Virus record (IMG/VR): IMGVR_UViG_3300042474_000294
Coordinates: 1-38,035 of that record
Source of the DNA: a virus
Strand: one strand, 5' to 3'
Length of the DNA: 38,035 bases
Numbering within the stretch: the first letter of the stretch is position 1; every line of letters begins with the position of its first letter. The notes under the pieces are model-generated. The model worked only from the letters and a program-made list of their open reading frames with translations, made no database searches and was not told the DNA's origin. The position numbers and the translations under genes are program-made. Shown piece after piece: positions 2,215-38,035 of the stretch.

Positions 2215-2423
2215 TTAAGTATGTAATTGAAACCGATACGTTCGTGACCGGTTGGGTGAATTGCTCGACCGATGAGGACGGGTACCCGCTCGCATTTAAC
2301 ACTCTTGAAGAGGCGCAGGAAGAGCTCGACCTTTATTTATCCGAGTTAAAACAAGCGTATAAAGAAAAGCATATTGACAGTTATAACCCCGAAGATTATC
2401 GCATAGCTGAGGTGACAGAATGA
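2211..2423 (+). CDS. Small acidic hypothetical protein (70 aa)
   Basis: The ATG overlaps the previous stop and is also preceded by TTGGAGCTCA, the recurrent ribosome binding motif of this operon. The protein is acidic: MIKYVIETDTFVTGWVNC, then a helix LEEAQEELDLYLSELKQAY, then a short strand. The TGW...DG...TLEEAxxEL pattern resembles small phage proteins that report no function. Coupled to the next gene by ATGA at 2420-2423. Confidence 0.65.
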   Translation: MIKYVIETDTFVTGWVNCSTDEDGYPLAFNTLEEAQEELDLYLSELKQAYKEKHIDSYNPEDYRIAEVTE

Positions 2424-2644
2424 TTAAATACACTAATGGCAAACCCGTACAGCATGGGGACGTTGTGCACGTTAAAAACCGGCCGTATACCGTCGACTCA
2501 TACGACCAGAAAAGCGGGTACGTCTACGCGCGCTCAATGGATGAATCCCGCACACTGCGCCCGCTATACCCGCGCGATATAGGCGCCTATTGGGATAACG
2601 TGCATCCAATTTTCGCGGAGGCGCTAAGCGCATGGCGTCCCTAA
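2420..2644 (+). CDS. Small hypothetical protein (74 aa)
   Basis: Starts MIKYTNGKPVQHGDVVHVKN, typical of a small SH3-like beta barrel (a GDxVxV turn followed by short strands), but the fold is inferred only from pattern. No catalytic residues are visible. GAGGTGAC precedes the start. Its 3' end overlaps the micropeptide gene at 2632 by 13 bases. Confidence 0.65.
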   Translation: MIKYTNGKPVQHGDVVHVKNRPYTVDSYDQKSGYVYARSMDESRTLRPLYPRDIGAYWDNVHPIFAEALSAWRP

Positions 2645-2692: not shown

Positions 2693-2716
2693 AAAACGGC
2701 CTTCTAGGCCGTTTTT
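2693..2716. terminator. Bidirectional terminator between convergent operons
   Basis: AAAACGGCCT (2693-2702) pairs perfectly with AGGCCGTTTT (2706-2715) around a 3-base loop, with A-runs and T-runs on both sides, so it can stop transcription from either strand. It lies 2 bases after the plus-strand micropeptide and covers the last codons of the minus-strand primase-helicase, whose TAG stop is at 2704-2706. Confidence 0.85.
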
Positions 2717-5001
2717 ACTATCTTGGGCGGCGCAGGTGTCTCTACCATGCGCCGCAAATCGGACTTAGTGTACTGTCGCGCCATATCGGGCGCCGCGAAT
2801 ATATGCTTTTTCGTTGTCAATTCCGTTGACATTACCCGTCCGCAGTCTACCCACTCGGCCTCTTGTAACGCGTGCATAAGCGCGGCCGGCGGCGTTTTGA
2901 CACCTAAAGGGGCGGAGCCCGCCAAACGCGCGCAAAGCGCTTGGAAGGGCCCTGCTATCACGCCGCGGGCAAATTCGCCCTGACGCTCGCATATCTGCGA
3001 GTATAGCCACGCCTCGGCGCTACTCATACCCTGTTCGATCATGCTGCGCTTAAAGTCCGTCACGGGAGGGGAGGCGGCCGGATTAAAAGCGCTTACGTCC
3101 CGCGCATAAAGCCACGCAGTGCACGCGGCCAACCCGCCGGCGCCATACCACGCCCATAGACGCGCGCTTTCCTCGGGCTCCATCTTGGGGGCGTTAGACC
3201 ACACGCAAAACCAGCGGCGGTCGTCCGAGTCTAGGGTAATGCTTACCCTGTCGTTCGAAAAGGCCAGTACAAACAAGCGGTTTGGCATATCGAAAGGGTG
3301 CAAACCCTTGCGATTGACCGTCAGGGTGTCGGGGGGTGCTGCAATTATGGGCTTAAGCATATTGGCAAGCGCTCGGCGTTCGCGCGCCTCGGGCTCGCGT
3401 AATTCGTTTAAGACTAAGATTTCGGTTTCAAGCTGATAATGGAATTGACTAAACAACTGCGCGGCCGTCATAATTCGCACGTTCTCATCATTAACGCCAC
3501 GGATACCCCAAAACAAGGGCGCCCACATCGAATCCTTACCCGAGCCCTGATGCCCGCCATGTAGGACGGCGTGATTAAGCTTGATTTTAGGGTTGCGTAG
3601 GGTAAACGCCATTACATCGAATATATGCTTGAGCTCGGCAGGGTCGGGCACCAAGCGCTTACAGTGTTCGAGCCACGGGGTGACATCGGCCGCCGCGGCC
3701 GCAGGGCGCAAATCACGCCACCGGTTACCGTAGGTTAGGCCGTTGCGCTCGACGATCACGTTATCGCCGGCAGCGAAGGTCACGCCCACAAGGGAGGGGG
3801 CGCCGCACTGGTTTCGGTTTTCGTCAAATGATACGGAAGCTTCAATACGGCGCTTGGCGTTATTGATACTCTTGCAGTCTATATGGCGAAAAATCGCGTT
3901 AAAGCTTGAGCGTGACACTTCGCGGCGCTCGACCATATCAAAATAACTGTCGTCGTTCTGGATGTAAGCAAAACGAGTAAACCACTCGGCCTTTTCGATG
4001 CGTCCGAGTTGTTTGCGCTCGACTTGCGCGACAATCTCAGCGGCACGGTCGGGGAAGGCCTCGGTAGGCTGCAATTTGGATAGCGCGCCCGTCATCATAG
4101 AAGCGAGTAATTCGTCTCTGAGGCCTGGGGTGTGTTGCGGGCCGCCTTGATCGCCCACCCATTGTAGGAAGGTCTGCGAGTCGAAGTCTAGGCAATGCGA
4201 ATGCAGACAGCAGTAGGCGCGCATCGAGGGGTTGTAACGACCCTCGGGGTTACCGTCGGTATGCTCGGCGTTGTTGGGGCAGACTACCCCCATCCAACCC
4301 TCGGGGTTGGGGCGTGAGAGCACAAGCTTATTCGAGCTTAGCCAGATCACGACATCATCATTACCATCGTCTGCGACGCGTATGGGTGTAAAGCGTGCGT
4401 TCTCGATCGGGGCGGGGGTGACAGCTAACGCCTCGCATATCTGGGCGAGACTGAATTCACGCGTCGGGTGAAACTCGGTTAAGCGTGCGGCGAAGTTCTC
4501 ACGCCCAGGCTTTAGGTTGACTGACTCGGGGAGCCGAAAATTACGCACGGCGTTCGTAGCCCCTGGGTCGGTGTAACCGGCCTCTGCAATTGCCTTGATG
4601 GCGGCGGTAAACTCATCAACGGTCGGGTGATCGTCCAACGCAAAAGTGTAGCCCCATTGGTAGTTGTCGGGAGAGGTTTCGATCTTCCAAGTGGGCTCAA
4701 TCGGGGGCAGCTTGGACTTGGTGCCGACGTCGTCTAGCACTAGGAAACCGACACGCTCGCAGTTAGCGATAGACGCAGACGGGTGCCCGTCTTTAAAACG
4801 GCTCACGATAAACATAGCCGTATTGGCGTACCACGCACCTTGACCGTTGTATTTTTCAGGCAAGTAAGCCGGCCAAGTGCACTTGATCGCACCATCGGCG
4901 TGAAACTGGTACTCGCCATTCTTTAACTGTGGCTTTTGACGCACAAAAAGTACGGTTTCGCCCTCTGGGGCTAAGTTTGTTATATACTCAAAAAAGTTCA
5001 T
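2704..5001 (-). CDS. Primase-helicase with DUF5906 (NrS-1 type) SF3-like helicase domain
   Basis: 765 aa, replication initiator and helicase. Residues about 50-200 resemble a plasmid RepB-like primase domain. CPNNAEHTDG (241-250) and CCLHSHC (264-270) suggest a zinc-binding segment. Residues about 440-650 form the helicase: Walker A GGHQGSGKDS (482-491), acidic strand ETEILVLNELREPE (Walker B, about 525-538), FVLAFSND sensor (about 577-584) and an arginine-finger candidate DDRRWF (593-598). This matches the DUF5906/NrS-1 polymerase-associated helicase family known from phages. AAGGAG sits ahead of the ATG. It follows the polymerase gene and should form the replication fork pair with it. Confidence 0.9.
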   Translation of the reverse strand: MNFFEYITNLAPEGETVLFVRQKPQLKNGEYQFHADGAIKCTWPAYLPEKYNGQGAWYANTAMFIVSRFKDGHPSASIANCERVGFLVLDDVGTKSKLPPIEPTWKIETSPDNYQWGYTFALDDHPTVDEFTAAIKAIAEAGYTDPGATNAVRNFRLPESVNLKPGRENFAARLTEFHPTREFSLAQICEALAVTPAPIENARFTPIRVADDGNDDVVIWLSSNKLVLSRPNPEGWMGVVCPNNAEHTDGNPEGRYNPSMRAYCCLHSHCLDFDSQTFLQWVGDQGGPQHTPGLRDELLASMMTGALSKLQPTEAFPDRAAEIVAQVERKQLGRIEKAEWFTRFAYIQNDDSYFDMVERREVSRSSFNAIFRHIDCKSINNAKRRIEASVSFDENRNQCGAPSLVGVTFAAGDNVIVERNGLTYGNRWRDLRPAAAAADVTPWLEHCKRLVPDPAELKHIFDVMAFTLRNPKIKLNHAVLHGGHQGSGKDSMWAPLFWGIRGVNDENVRIMTAAQLFSQFHYQLETEILVLNELREPEARERRALANMLKPIIAAPPDTLTVNRKGLHPFDMPNRLFVLAFSNDRVSITLDSDDRRWFCVWSNAPKMEPEESARLWAWYGAGGLAACTAWLYARDVSAFNPAASPPVTDFKRSMIEQGMSSAEAWLYSQICERQGEFARGVIAGPFQALCARLAGSAPLGVKTPPAALMHALQEAEWVDCGRVMSTELTTKKHIFAAPDMARQYTKSDLRRMVETPAPPKIVKTA

Positions 5002-11794: not shown

Positions 11795-11855
11795 GACGTG
11801 GGCTAAGTTTGGTTGGAGTCCACCATCCCAAGCGCGGCAGTCCGCACATGCTTGA
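11721..11855 (+). CDS. Small phage protein (44 aa)
   Basis: ATG at 11721 with AAGGAG at 11708-11713. Translation MKLRCPLIDDPTWVYVPSAA, then TDVAKTWAKFGWSPPSQ. The pattern TxVAxTWxxFGWxPPS recurs in small proteins of phages infecting Burkholderiales and relatives, function unknown. It ends the rightward operon and overlaps the endolysin gene of the opposite strand tail to tail by 53 bases. Confidence 0.65.
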   Translation: MKLRCPLIDDPTWVYVPSAATDVAKTWAKFGWSPPSQARQSAHA

Positions 11856-25454: not shown

Positions 25455-25973
25455 TCAGAGGTAAGTTTGATGAGGACAAACGCCGCCGTTTTTATGTTTT
25501 CCTATTTGACAATTCATACATAGAACTTGATACCCAGAGGGAAACTTGTTCTTACGTAGCCATTGATAAAAAGCAGTACCGCTTCCGCTGTATAAACCTG
25601 ATTTTCGTTCAATTGCGCCGTCATTGTTAATATGATCTATCGTTAAAAACATTTGTTCAGTTTCTTCGCAGCAATTACATTTGTATCCACCATAAGCTGT
25701 AAATACTTCGTTTTTGCAAATCGCTTGTAAACGCTTGGTTTTGTCAGATTCAGCTTTGCGTATTGCAGCAACTTCTTCTGGCGTTCCGTTTGTTAACTTA
25801 CGATTGCGATATTCACGTTTATGCTCACGGTCTTTATCCCGATTTGCTTCACGCCAATCTCGCATGCGTTGATTGAATTTTTCACGGTTTCGTTCTCTAT
25901 ACCTAGCAGATGCTTCCCTGTTGCGTTTCCGTTTCAGTTCTTCAGCCGTTAAGTGTAAATTGTCACTCTCCAA
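25455..25973 (-). CDS. Free-standing HNH homing endonuclease
   Basis: 172 aa, TTG start at 25973 with AGGAG 6 bases upstream. Residues 10-60 are a basic helical DNA-binding region with repeated NREKF/NRDKD-like units. The HNH core has a CxxC knuckle (C99-C102), LTIDHINNDG (D113, H114), then LCMNCQIGKHKN (C152, C155, H160, N161). It is inserted between scaffold and coat genes and is visibly AT-richer than they are, indicating acquisition. No intron boundaries are seen, so it is an intergenic homing gene. Confidence 0.9.
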   Translation of the reverse strand: MESDNLHLTAEELKRKRNREASARYRERNREKFNQRMRDWREANRDKDREHKREYRNRKLTNGTPEEVAAIRKAESDKTKRLQAICKNEVFTAYGGYKCNCCEETEQMFLTIDHINNDGAIERKSGLYSGSGTAFYQWLRKNKFPSGYQVLCMNCQIGKHKNGGVCPHQTYL

Positions 25974-35420: not shown

Positions 35421-36943
35421 TACGACGACATCCATGAAGTTAGTACTCCGCTTGCAGAATACCCCCTGCGTGGGGTCTTGTCAACAGTTTCACGATGCGC
35501 CATTGGGAAGGCAAAAGTCACGCATATCGCGTCTGCCGCATCCGGTGAGGCCAAGCCTCTAGAGCGCATGTCCTTTTTGCTCTCTAAAAAGATCGTGCCC
35601 TTAGAGTCAGGCTTCATCATGGGCGAAATGAGGTCACTTTTGAGCATTCGGTCACTGGGAATAGAGGCGGACTTCAACCATTCACGCATTGAGCCCCACA
35701 TCTCCGCCCGTTTGTTGCCGTACATGAGCGGATTCTTAGATTTGTTACCAAAGTTCACACCCCGAATCTTGTAGCGCTGCTCTTTCAAGCGATCCACAAC
35801 CCCTCCACCCACGCCGCCCTCGTCAATCACAACCATTGCGGGTGAGTATTCTTCAATCGCCTCGATAATGTGACCGACCACCGTCATCGTGTCATCGCCC
35901 CGATAGCGCTTGATGTCAATAATGTCCCGCCCTTGCCTGACTGCGATGACCGTTGCGTCCGCCCCGAACCGTGCGGGGTCCACGCCCAACACAATGGGTG
36001 CTGACTGATCCTTATAGCGGGGGCGCTTCATGGCGTCATCTACCGTCTGCGCCGAGATGAACTGATCATCGCTTGCGTTCGGGAACTCACCATAGACTTC
36101 TACGTGCGCCTGACTTGAGTCTGGCCCATATTCATCAATAATCTGCTGATAGACCGCCTTGTCTGTGCCCTCAACCGTGCGGGCGTCGACTACCTGCGTG
36201 CGCCAAAACTCACGCTTGGCGTGAAAGCACTCATAGAAGTAGCCCGAGTTACGCCGCGGGTTAGAAAACGCCAACCAGAAGCGGTTCGGTGTGTTCTCTG
36301 TAAAGAACCCAGAGGTCACCGCCCAGATGGCGTCGTCAATACCCGAGGCTTCGTCAAAGATCACCATCACACCGTCGTAGTTGTGCACACCGGCGTACGC
36401 ATCCGGATTCTCGCTTGACCACAAGCGACCTTCCACCGACCAGTAGCGCGTGCCTTTCTTTAAGTCGCGCTCGACCAGTTCTGTTAGCCATTTGGCGGGC
36501 ATGAGACGGGTGGCTGACACCTCAAACCAATGGCTGTTAATCGCCATCGCCAACCATTTAGTAATCTCAGCCCATGTGACTGACCTAAGCTGACTCTCAG
36601 AGTTGGCCGATATGATGGTGGTCGAGCCGATCCTGGTGGACAGCATCCAGATCGTGATCCAACTAACAAGTGCCGACTTGCCAATACCGCGCCCCGAGCT
36701 CACCGATTGGCGTAGCGTGTCAAAGTCAACCTTACCCTTGTTCTGCGCGATGTGGTCCCCGATCTGCTGGAGCACCACCCGTTGCCATTTGCGTGGCCCC
36801 GAGAAGTTTTCCAAGGGCGTGCCCTTCACGCCCCACGGGAATACTAACGCAACAAACGCTAGCGGGTTATCTCTGATCGCGGGCGACCACAGCCTCGCCA
36901 TTAACTCTTGTTCGTCCTGCGCTGAGTATATTGTTGTCTGCAA
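35420..36943 (-). CDS. terL: Terminase large subunit
   Basis: 507 aa, ATP-driven packaging motor with nuclease. Walker A SSGRGIGKS (82-90), Walker B VMVIFDEAS (D197, E198), coupling motif around AFSNPRRNSG (about 225-234). Nuclease domain acidic residues: D322 in VLGVDPARFG, D374 in VVIDEGGVGGG and D468/D471 in SPDAADAI. Size and layout match P22 gp2 (499 aa). It overlaps the small subunit gene by 77 bases, a compact arrangement common in headful phages. Confidence 0.96.
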   Translation of the reverse strand: MQTTIYSAQDEQELMARLWSPAIRDNPLAFVALVFPWGVKGTPLENFSGPRKWQRVVLQQIGDHIAQNKGKVDFDTLRQSVSSGRGIGKSALVSWITIWMLSTRIGSTTIISANSESQLRSVTWAEITKWLAMAINSHWFEVSATRLMPAKWLTELVERDLKKGTRYWSVEGRLWSSENPDAYAGVHNYDGVMVIFDEASGIDDAIWAVTSGFFTENTPNRFWLAFSNPRRNSGYFYECFHAKREFWRTQVVDARTVEGTDKAVYQQIIDEYGPDSSQAHVEVYGEFPNASDDQFISAQTVDDAMKRPRYKDQSAPIVLGVDPARFGADATVIAVRQGRDIIDIKRYRGDDTMTVVGHIIEAIEEYSPAMVVIDEGGVGGGVVDRLKEQRYKIRGVNFGNKSKNPLMYGNKRAEMWGSMREWLKSASIPSDRMLKSDLISPMMKPDSKGTIFLESKKDMRSRGLASPDAADAICVTFAFPMAHRETVDKTPRRGYSASGVLTSWMSS

Positions 36944-37346
36944 GTGTGTCGTCCTGTAAGTGCGTAATGTCTATCACACGCTTCTCGCCCTGTTCAAGCG
37001 CGGCAATGACGCTGATGCGCTGTTCAACATCTACATTGATCTGTTGCTTGGCGACCCAATCGTGCTTGTGCTTCAAGATTTCAAGTGCGGCCTTAGCGTC
37101 ACCATTACGTGCGGCGTCGTGCAGCACCATCGACATCTCGCGCTCGCCGTCTGCTTTGCCCTTAACCGCGGCGTGCTCGGCCACAGGGTCAACCTGACAC
37201 AGTATCCGATACTCGGCCGGTAACATGCCAGCGGCAAGCGCCAACGAGTCGCCCGAGAGTCCTAACTTAGCGGCGTCGTAGATCGCCTTTAAGCGCGACT
37301 CTGTGGCTTTGATTTGCCGGATGGAGAGCGGGAAGGATTCGAACAT
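36867..37346 (-). CDS. terS: Terminase small subunit
   Basis: 159 aa, recognises the packaging start site and regulates TerL. N-terminal helix-turn-helix-like region (RQIKATESRLKAIYDAAKLG; GDSLALAAGMLPAEYRIL, about 10-50), central helices (KADGEREMSMVLHDAARNGD; AALEILKHKHDWV) for ring formation, and a C-terminus expected to contact the portal. No good ribosome binding site precedes the only ATG. First gene of the late operon, facing the repeat region where a pac site would be expected, since P22 pac lies inside its terS. Confidence 0.88.
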   Translation of the reverse strand: MFESFPLSIRQIKATESRLKAIYDAAKLGLSGDSLALAAGMLPAEYRILCQVDPVAEHAAVKGKADGEREMSMVLHDAARNGDAKAALEILKHKHDWVAKQQINVDVEQRISVIAALEQGEKRVIDITHLQDDTLADNNILSAGRTRVNGEAVVARDQR

Positions 37347-37482
37347 TTGCTGATTGTATATTAAAAAAAAATTGTTAGCAGACCCTGCGTAGACTAGGAC
37401 CTGTCGGCCAAGGCCCTACCCCCCCCTCTCAAATATTTTTAGCTTTTTGCTTGCAGCTCCTGGGCTAAGGTTTGCTTAGTGT

Positions 37483-37567
37483 TGCTGCACTGCACAATGC
37501 CACTAAGACTTAGTGAGTAATGCTGCACTGCACAATGTTGCACTGCACAATGCTGCGCTGCACAATG
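37483..37567 (+). repeat. TGCACTGCACAATG repeats (4 copies)
   Basis: Copies at 37483-37499, 37521-37537, 37538-37552 and 37553-37567; the last three are directly tandem with 15-17 base spacing. All end in GCACAATG. They alternate with two CTAAG palindromes. Confidence 0.8.
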
Positions 37568-37703
37568 CACTAAGACTTAGTGAGTACAGCGATCTAAGCG
37601 ATATAGTCACGGCCGCAAAGTCGACGGCCAAACCGAGCATAAAGACTAAGACTTAGTGAGCACAATACTAAGACTTAGTGAGCATAAATGCTAAGACTTA
37701 GTG
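37501..37703 (+). repeat. Palindromic iterons with core CTAAGACTTAGTGAG (5 copies)
   Basis: Copies of CACTAAGACTTAGTG or shortened forms at 37501-37515, 37568-37582, 37645-37658, 37667-37680 and 37691-37703, each followed by AG. CACTAAG and CTTAGTG are perfect inverted arms around one A. A sixth, looser copy (CTAAG-N5-CTTAG) lies at 37465-37479. Spacing is irregular (8-62 bases), typical of binding sites for a dimeric initiator or regulator. Confidence 0.85.
37591..37611 (+). repeat. GATCTAAGCGATATAGTCACG element, copy 1
   Basis: The sequence GATCTAAGCGATATAGTCAC is followed by GGCC...GGCCAAACCG. The same order recurs at 37749-37788 with substitutions, giving an imperfect direct repeat of about 45 bases. 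Confidence 0.7.
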
Positions 37704-37742
37704 AGTTTATGCTTAAAATAATACTTGCCAATTTGACAAGAT

Positions 37743-37768
37743 ATAGTCATCTAAGCGATATAGTCATG
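37743..37768 (+). repeat. ATAGTCA element, copies 2 and 3
   Basis: ATAGTCATC (37743-37751) and ATAGTCATG (37760-37768) flank CTAAGCG, preceded by a TTGACA box at 37733-37738. The downstream part repeats the flank of copy 1 (GGCCAAACCG). Inverted copies lie at 37868-37876 (CATGACTAT) and 37921-37929 (CGTGACTAT, also at 13-21). Confidence 0.65.
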
Positions 37769-37816
37769 CCGGAGAAATCGCTGGCCAAACCGCGTGTGCT
37801 CTCCTATCCTATAAAC

Positions 37817-37836
37817 TACTGTATATCCATACAGTG
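37817..37836. promoter_or_regulatory. LexA-type SOS box
   Basis: TACTGTATATCCATACAGTG contains CTGT (37819-37822), eight bases, then ACAG (37831-37834), within perfect 7-bp arms ACTGTAT/ATACAGT. This is the beta/gammaproteobacterial LexA consensus CTGT-N8-ACAG with the favoured flanking TA. It sits in the control region between the late and early operons, so host SOS status could influence phage transcription. Confidence 0.75.
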
Positions 37837-37867
37837 TAAGATTAAAATTTTTACTTTTTCTCCAAAA

Positions 37868-37889
37868 CATGACTATATGACTTAGATCG
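37868..37889 (-). repeat. Inverted copy of the CTAAG/ATAGTCA element
   Basis: On the minus strand this reads CGATCTAAGTCATATAGTCATG, closely matching the plus-strand element at 37590-37611. Together with the inverted ATAGTCACG at 37921-37929, it gives the control region a roughly symmetrical layout around the LexA box. Confidence 0.65.
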
Positions 37890-37908
37890 TTTATTCGTGC
37901 GCCTTTCC

Positions 37909-38035
37909 GATAGCTTAGACCGTGACTATTTCGCGCTGATCCATAGCATAGCCGCAAACTATTGGTTTACAGTTTATGATGTAAATAATTATTGTACATA
38001 AGCTTGCGAACTGTAAAACATTAGTTTACACTGCA
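37909..38035. repeat. 127-bp direct repeat, right copy (contig overlap)
   Basis: Exact copy of bases 1-127. When the circle is closed this copy is dropped, base 37908 joins base 1, and the non-coding region 37347-37908 becomes continuous with 1-157. Confidence 0.95.

Follow-up and report, generated by a model that had tools for sequence, protein, structure and literature searches.

What does a gene-free, repeat-filled stretch do in a phage genome, and which protein reads it? The question is raised by the window, i.e. the whole 38,035-nt stretch of viral DNA analysed here (IMG/VR record IMGVR_UViG_3300042474_000294), in which such a stretch lies beside the gene of the small terminase subunit (terS) and between two diverging operons. 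The original prediction saw in it a candidate replication origin, packaging site and master switch, with a partner perhaps to be found among the early proteins.

The gene-free region and its repeats

An exact 127-bp repeat is common to both ends of the contig (1-127 = 37909-38035), so the genome closes as a circle at 37908 bp. Across the closure 719 bp, with a GC content of 40.5%, separate the terS start codon (37346) from the ATG of the first early gene (158, plus strand). No conserved ORF was found in this stretch (37347 to 157), as expected of a region predicted to hold no gene, and tRNA and Rfam scans gave no matches.

The stretch has 100 repeated 10-mer positions, compared with a mean of 2.6 and a maximum of 19 in 1000 first-order shuffles, and with a mean of 3.7 and a maximum of 43 in equal windows over the rest of the genome. 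It is by far the most repeat-rich part of the genome, and the repeat density originally claimed is real. The claim of at least three interleaved families also held: CTAAGACTTAG, a palindrome with five exact copies and absent elsewhere in the genome; TGCACTGCACAATG, with four copies; and TCTAAGCGATATAGTCA, of AGTCAT-type sites, with inverted counterparts at 37868-37889. The iteron unit of the window is AGTCAT/AGCGAT in steps of 8-9 bp (core AGYCAT; inverted pair ATGACTATATGACTT). The features are:

36867-37346, minus strand: terS, which does not track the iterons
37347-37908, no strand: gene-free region before the circle closure, continuing at 1-157
37362-37427, no strand: block adjacent to terS, AAAAAAAAATTGTT..CGTAGAC..GGCC..GGCCCTACCCCCCC, conserved among relatives with most of the iteron types
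37486-37567, plus strand: TGCACTGCACAATG repeats (37486, 37524, 37539, 37554)
37503-37701, no strand: five CTAAGACTTAG palindromes (37503, 37570, 37646, 37668, 37691)
37586-37610, plus strand: left-hand iteron set 1, AGCGAT-AGCGAT-AGTCAC, steps of 9 and 8 bp
37741-37768, plus strand: left-hand iteron set 2, AGTCAT-AGCGAT-AGTCAT, steps of 9 and 8 bp
37810-37868, no strand: AT-rich core, proposed melting site (50-bp minimum at 37810, 20% GC)
37818-37835: palindrome ACTGTATATCCATACAGT inside the AT-rich core
37868-37889, minus strand: right-hand inverted iteron pair CATGACTATATGACTTAGATC
1-157, no strand: gene-free region after the closure, with promoter-like sites facing the early operon

Two opposed sets of short tandem sites thus border an AT-rich palindromic core, and an iteron origin is the best reading of the region. 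It must also hold both diverging promoters; a promoter/terminator scan returned five promoter-like sites against 2.0 expected, which is not decisive, and a repressor for the divergent operons was not found. The GC-skew inflection proposed as a check on the origin did not appear: the detrended extremes lie at 11819 and 19844 and there is no turn at the region, where gene orientation may mask one.

A candidate partner and its relatives

Searches with TerL and the primase gave more than 150 related contigs, and about 130 IMG/VR relatives were compared. No early ORF is present in more than 46 of 130 relatives, and by this prevalence the early-operon proteins were ruled out as universal partners. 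The protein sought among them is most likely the primase-helicase instead.

2704-5001, minus strand: primase-SF3 helicase, 765 aa, proposed initiator
2740-3021, minus strand: its predicted C-terminal winged-helix domain, residues 661-754
2812-2835, minus strand: wing residues 723-730 (VMSTELTT), covarying with the iteron
2420-2644, plus strand: 74-aa early protein, a weak lead as partner of the CTAAGNCTTAG palindrome, found almost only in CTAAGNCTTAG genomes

The primase matches the PHROG DNA primase and, above the cut-off, Pfam DUF5906, with a weak match to RepB_primase. In an AlphaFold2 model residues 661-736 form a winged helix of topology H-b-H-H-b-wing-b (domain pLDDT about 80-90), and the covarying residues sit in its wing, between the two last strands. 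The model therefore predicts a C-terminal winged-helix domain that is putatively origin-binding. A fold search with the domain returned weak matches (best Z 6.4), mostly to winged-helix proteins.

In most relatives a repeat cluster occupies the same interval beside terS. The unit itself varies by lineage (TGACCCAAA, TGAC[CT]CACA, TGTCCACA, AGCCAACA, TGCCTACA, TTGCCCAA, TGACCAAA, ATGACAATA and others), so that a fixed pattern of paired [AG]G[TC]CA cores failed to pick up most relatives; unbiased k-mer counting located the repeats instead. The window's own type is known from three genomes only. In 56 of the 64 labelled relatives with iterons on both flanks, the iterons nearest to an AT minimum (median 20% GC) on its two sides are in opposite orientation and arranged alike, at distances of 81 bp (IQR 73-100) on one side and 28 bp (IQR 25-35) on the other. 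Conservation of the repeats had been named as a test: place and layout are kept across relatives, which favours the predicted origin, but the repeat sequences are not conserved.

Two close relatives suggest what the iterons follow. L087 has a TerS identical to that of the window and nearly identical primase residues 1-320, yet its iterons are of another type, and after about residue 320 its primase is mostly 45-75% identical in 40-residue blocks. L085, with a TerS only 92% identical, has window-type iterons, and its primase resembles the window's over the whole length. The iterons therefore follow the C-terminal half of the primase and not TerS. A sharp recombination breakpoint is seen among near relatives at about primase residue 320, near position 4044.

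In L006 and L007 the TerL is 94-96% identical to that of the window (about 95% in L007). No SF3 primase was found in these partial records (21.7 kb for L007), and AGTCAT iteron sets were absent when the sequence was read by eye. L007 carries an unrelated Prim-Pol/PriCT/AAA_25 protein and an Sf6-like TerS, located elsewhere. Both relatives retain TGCAACA-type repeats, including the GCAACATTGTGCA repeats that are kin of TGCACTGCACAATG, and the conserved block (AAAAATTGTT...GGCCCTACCCCC) beside TerL, where the usual TerS is gone or has moved. Relatives lacking the repeats, which the original prediction counted against itself, were thus seen for the iterons, in the records where such a primase was not found either. 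With neither these iterons nor an SF3 primase found there and the block kept, the region appears to separate into an origin part that travels with the primase and a late-side block independent of it.

Other arrays were observed in the same interval. Two copies of TGTTTCACGTGGAACA lie in an intergenic region of L007 (4678-4693 and 4709-4724), a relative with a different replication protein; these we take to resemble bacterial parS sites. Where the window has its TGCACAATG and CTAAG repeats, from the conserved block to the iterons, the other lineages L042, L050, L055 and L067 have different palindromic arrays (e.g. GTTAGTAAGCACTTAC).

Beyond the family, the primase-helicases of the cultured Vibrio phages 1.021 and 1.185 are only about 26% identical, and plasmids gave only weak helicase or primase matches. 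Two primase-bearing contigs, L239 and L241, are binned with a Rhodoferax metagenome-assembled genome, a hint, not proof, of a betaproteobacterial host for the phage family.

Wing residues, iterons and competing explanations

Iteron labels were set from the DNA alone, with motif classes grouped by eye on a first set of loci. Eight residues of the wing (723-730) track the iteron across relatives. In a matched-pair test, in which the pairs compared are equally divergent, column 724 was conspicuous in the first set; of the 324 primase columns scored in the larger set, the seven best were without exception within 720-730, and column 724 had a value of 0.87 (sd 0.106). The maxima for TerS and TerL were 0.13 and 0.16. 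Ten pairs that differ in their iterons are phylogenetically separate; column 729 differs in all of them and column 724 in nine, as against a mean maximum of 5.4 (highest 8) for random placement, though fast-changing columns of the C-terminal tail, e.g. 742, likewise differ in 10 of 10. In the one exception at 724 the two iterons share the ending CACA, and lysine is present in both proteins. Across 19 same-iteron pairs, 729 differs in four and 724 in one. Restricting the TGTCCACA pair test to well-supported branches left a small sample, of four agreeing, no opposing and two neutral cases (p 0.125).

A prediction rule was fixed in the notebook before new loci were examined. It gave the right iteron in 32 of 33 new non-duplicate loci, all from the same phage family as the first set; permutations gave 13.4 on average and 24 at most. 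With L241 (right) and L239 (wrong), loci added later from bacterial bins, the total is 33 of 35. Nearest-neighbour prediction, with look-alike regions excluded, was correct in 96% of cases from the wing, 78% from the helicase, 47% from the N-terminal part of the primase, 47% from TerL and 39% from TerS, at a base rate of about 38%.

The wing lies only about 2.7 kb from the origin and some co-inheritance by linkage is therefore expected. Were linkage the whole explanation, the primase C-terminus, early operon and repeats would be inherited as a block and the wing would not read the iterons; the swapped segment is indeed contiguous in near relatives. However, the association is strongest at residues 720-730 and lower at 734-765, which are closer to the origin, the differences between the near-identical backbones L147/L162 and L059/L051 include the wing in each pair, and a given wing is found paired with its iteron again in separate backbones. 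Linkage only is thus quite improbable. We consider it unlikely, too, that an early/late regulator uses the repeats as its operators, with the origin elsewhere. The site between divergent operons and the palindromic CTAAGNCTTAG repeats would suit operators, and the 74-aa early gene accompanies these palindromes (present in 23 of 24 genomes with them and 2 of 106 without), an association that rests on about three clades and few independent events. Nevertheless the iterons follow the primase wing, and the early ORFs are too narrowly distributed (none beyond 46 of 130 genomes). For the CTAAG palindromes alone the operator idea is plausible, on those few independent events. They occur in 24 of 130 intervals alongside several wing types, and for this reason are probably not sites of the primase, a role that was considered for them and judged unlikely.

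The third alternative, in which TerS binds the repeats as a packaging site (pac or cos), is very unlikely. The window TerS gave no PHROG or Pfam match at threshold and is taken to be the small subunit from its overlap with the TerL start and its position, the same as that of a gene annotated as terminase small subunit in OR003940. The repeats directly adjoin terS and terL, the neighbouring block is conserved across lineages, and in about 15 of 80 contigs from relatives the end lies no more than roughly 0.6 kb from the TerS start (positions inspected). Yet TerS predicts the iteron at the base rate (39% vs 38%) and has no associated column, L087 combines the identical TerS with different iterons, the block survives in L006/L007 without the usual TerS, and contig breaks can stem from repeats. 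The predicted pac function accordingly finds no support for the iterons, which TerS does not track, and survives for the separate block at 37362-37427, a candidate packaging (pac/cos) site or late leader.

Some further observations concern this side of the region. The contigs ending near the TerS start are L005, L011, L012, L021, L037, L039, L043, L048, L049, L053, L056, L057, L068, L070 and L079, and they may stop there at true genome termini or where assembly broke at repeats. In L004, L010, L105 and L112 TerS is farther than usual from TerL, as if by insertion. HNH/homing endonuclease genes occur near the coat and terminase genes in the window (25455-25973), MW202483 (27644-28090) and OR003940 (30285-30620), and the annotation of MW202483 includes a DnaA-like HTH protein.

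Taken together, the sequence comparisons make it probable that the region is the replication origin of this freshwater phage, read through the wing of its primase-SF3 helicase, the likely partner of the iterons. It is from the observed layout, covariation and predictive rule that we infer physical binding, melting and origin function. The enzyme would bind the tandem 8-10-bp iterons by its C-terminal winged-helix domain, the wing deciding which iteron is read, and the oppositely oriented site sets would load helicase rings to both sides of the AT-rich core. The core would melt, and the same protein would then unwind and prime. Origin and wing would change together, through recombination and substitution.

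A more tentative possibility is that the wing is a readable recognition code in an abundant freshwater phage family with many incompatible origin/initiator types, switched by few wing residues under competition between co-infecting phages or pressure from origin-targeting parasites. In such a code Lys724 with Asp729 might specify TGTCCACA, and Ala724 with Gln/Pro729 and Ser730 might specify TGACCCAA.

How initiator and origin change specificity together without loss of function is hard to study, as few systems offer many switches. This family gives about ten separate ones, some between nearly identical proteins, and the strongest association is confined to a wing of about eight residues, so that the question can be tested directly, using short probes of DNA and a domain about 120 residues long. 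The results also provide a means of finding origins in a large group of uncultured phages, and compatibility groups of these phages may have their basis here.

Comparison with known replicons

The initiator of the PLE satellite has a RepA_N DNA-binding domain that covaries with the origin, and its specificity has been swapped repeatedly in a modular replicon (PMC8263062). Covariation and repeated swaps are features that PLE and the window phages share. PLE differs in having few types, in swaps linked to a phage nuclease (PMC8263062) and in an unrelated initiator, a Pfam scan of the window primase giving no match to RepA_N.

The closest solved relative of the helicase part is the NrS-1 primase-polymerase (E 1.3e-10 by sequence, 5e-13 by fold), with which it shares a homologous helicase region. 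In the parts available of PMC7102993 and PMC8718748, NrS-1 polymerase recognises 5'-TTTGGTTA-3', with two copies in its genome, but site recognition is attributed to a helix-bundle region and iteron arrays are not mentioned; the word 'winged' is absent from PMC7102993.

In phage P4, a single protein, alpha, acts as primase and helicase and has a winged helix that binds the origin repeats (PMC4234260), the same combination as is proposed here by analogy. The P4 alpha primase is of the bacterial (TOPRIM) type, whereas the N-terminal part of the window protein looks AEP/RepB'-like (weak Pfam match; 3h20 fold match). The P4 alpha domain was not among the matches listed by either fold search; those of the winged-helix domain were weak (best Z 6.4).

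The Pri-Rep proteins of PICI/SaPI islands bind iterons, open an AT-rich core and prime (PMC6092414), and structure 7pds shows PriRep1 with dsDNA. This structure of SaPI PriRep1 with DNA is among the fold matches of the full-length primase model (E 1.5e-5). As in PICI/P4-type Pri-Rep replicons, the window has a primase fused to an SF3 helicase, with a predicted, putatively origin-binding winged-helix domain at its C-terminus, and two iteron sets border an AT-rich region. Unlike the islands, its replicon belongs to a tailed phage with its own family-A DNA polymerase, from a family with many iteron types, and its origin is 2.7 kb from the end of the initiator gene, past the early operon, rather than immediately 3' of rep. 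By analogy, the region would best be explained as a PICI- or P4-like origin; distinctive here are how many switches there are, how far the association is concentrated in the wing, and the predictive rule.
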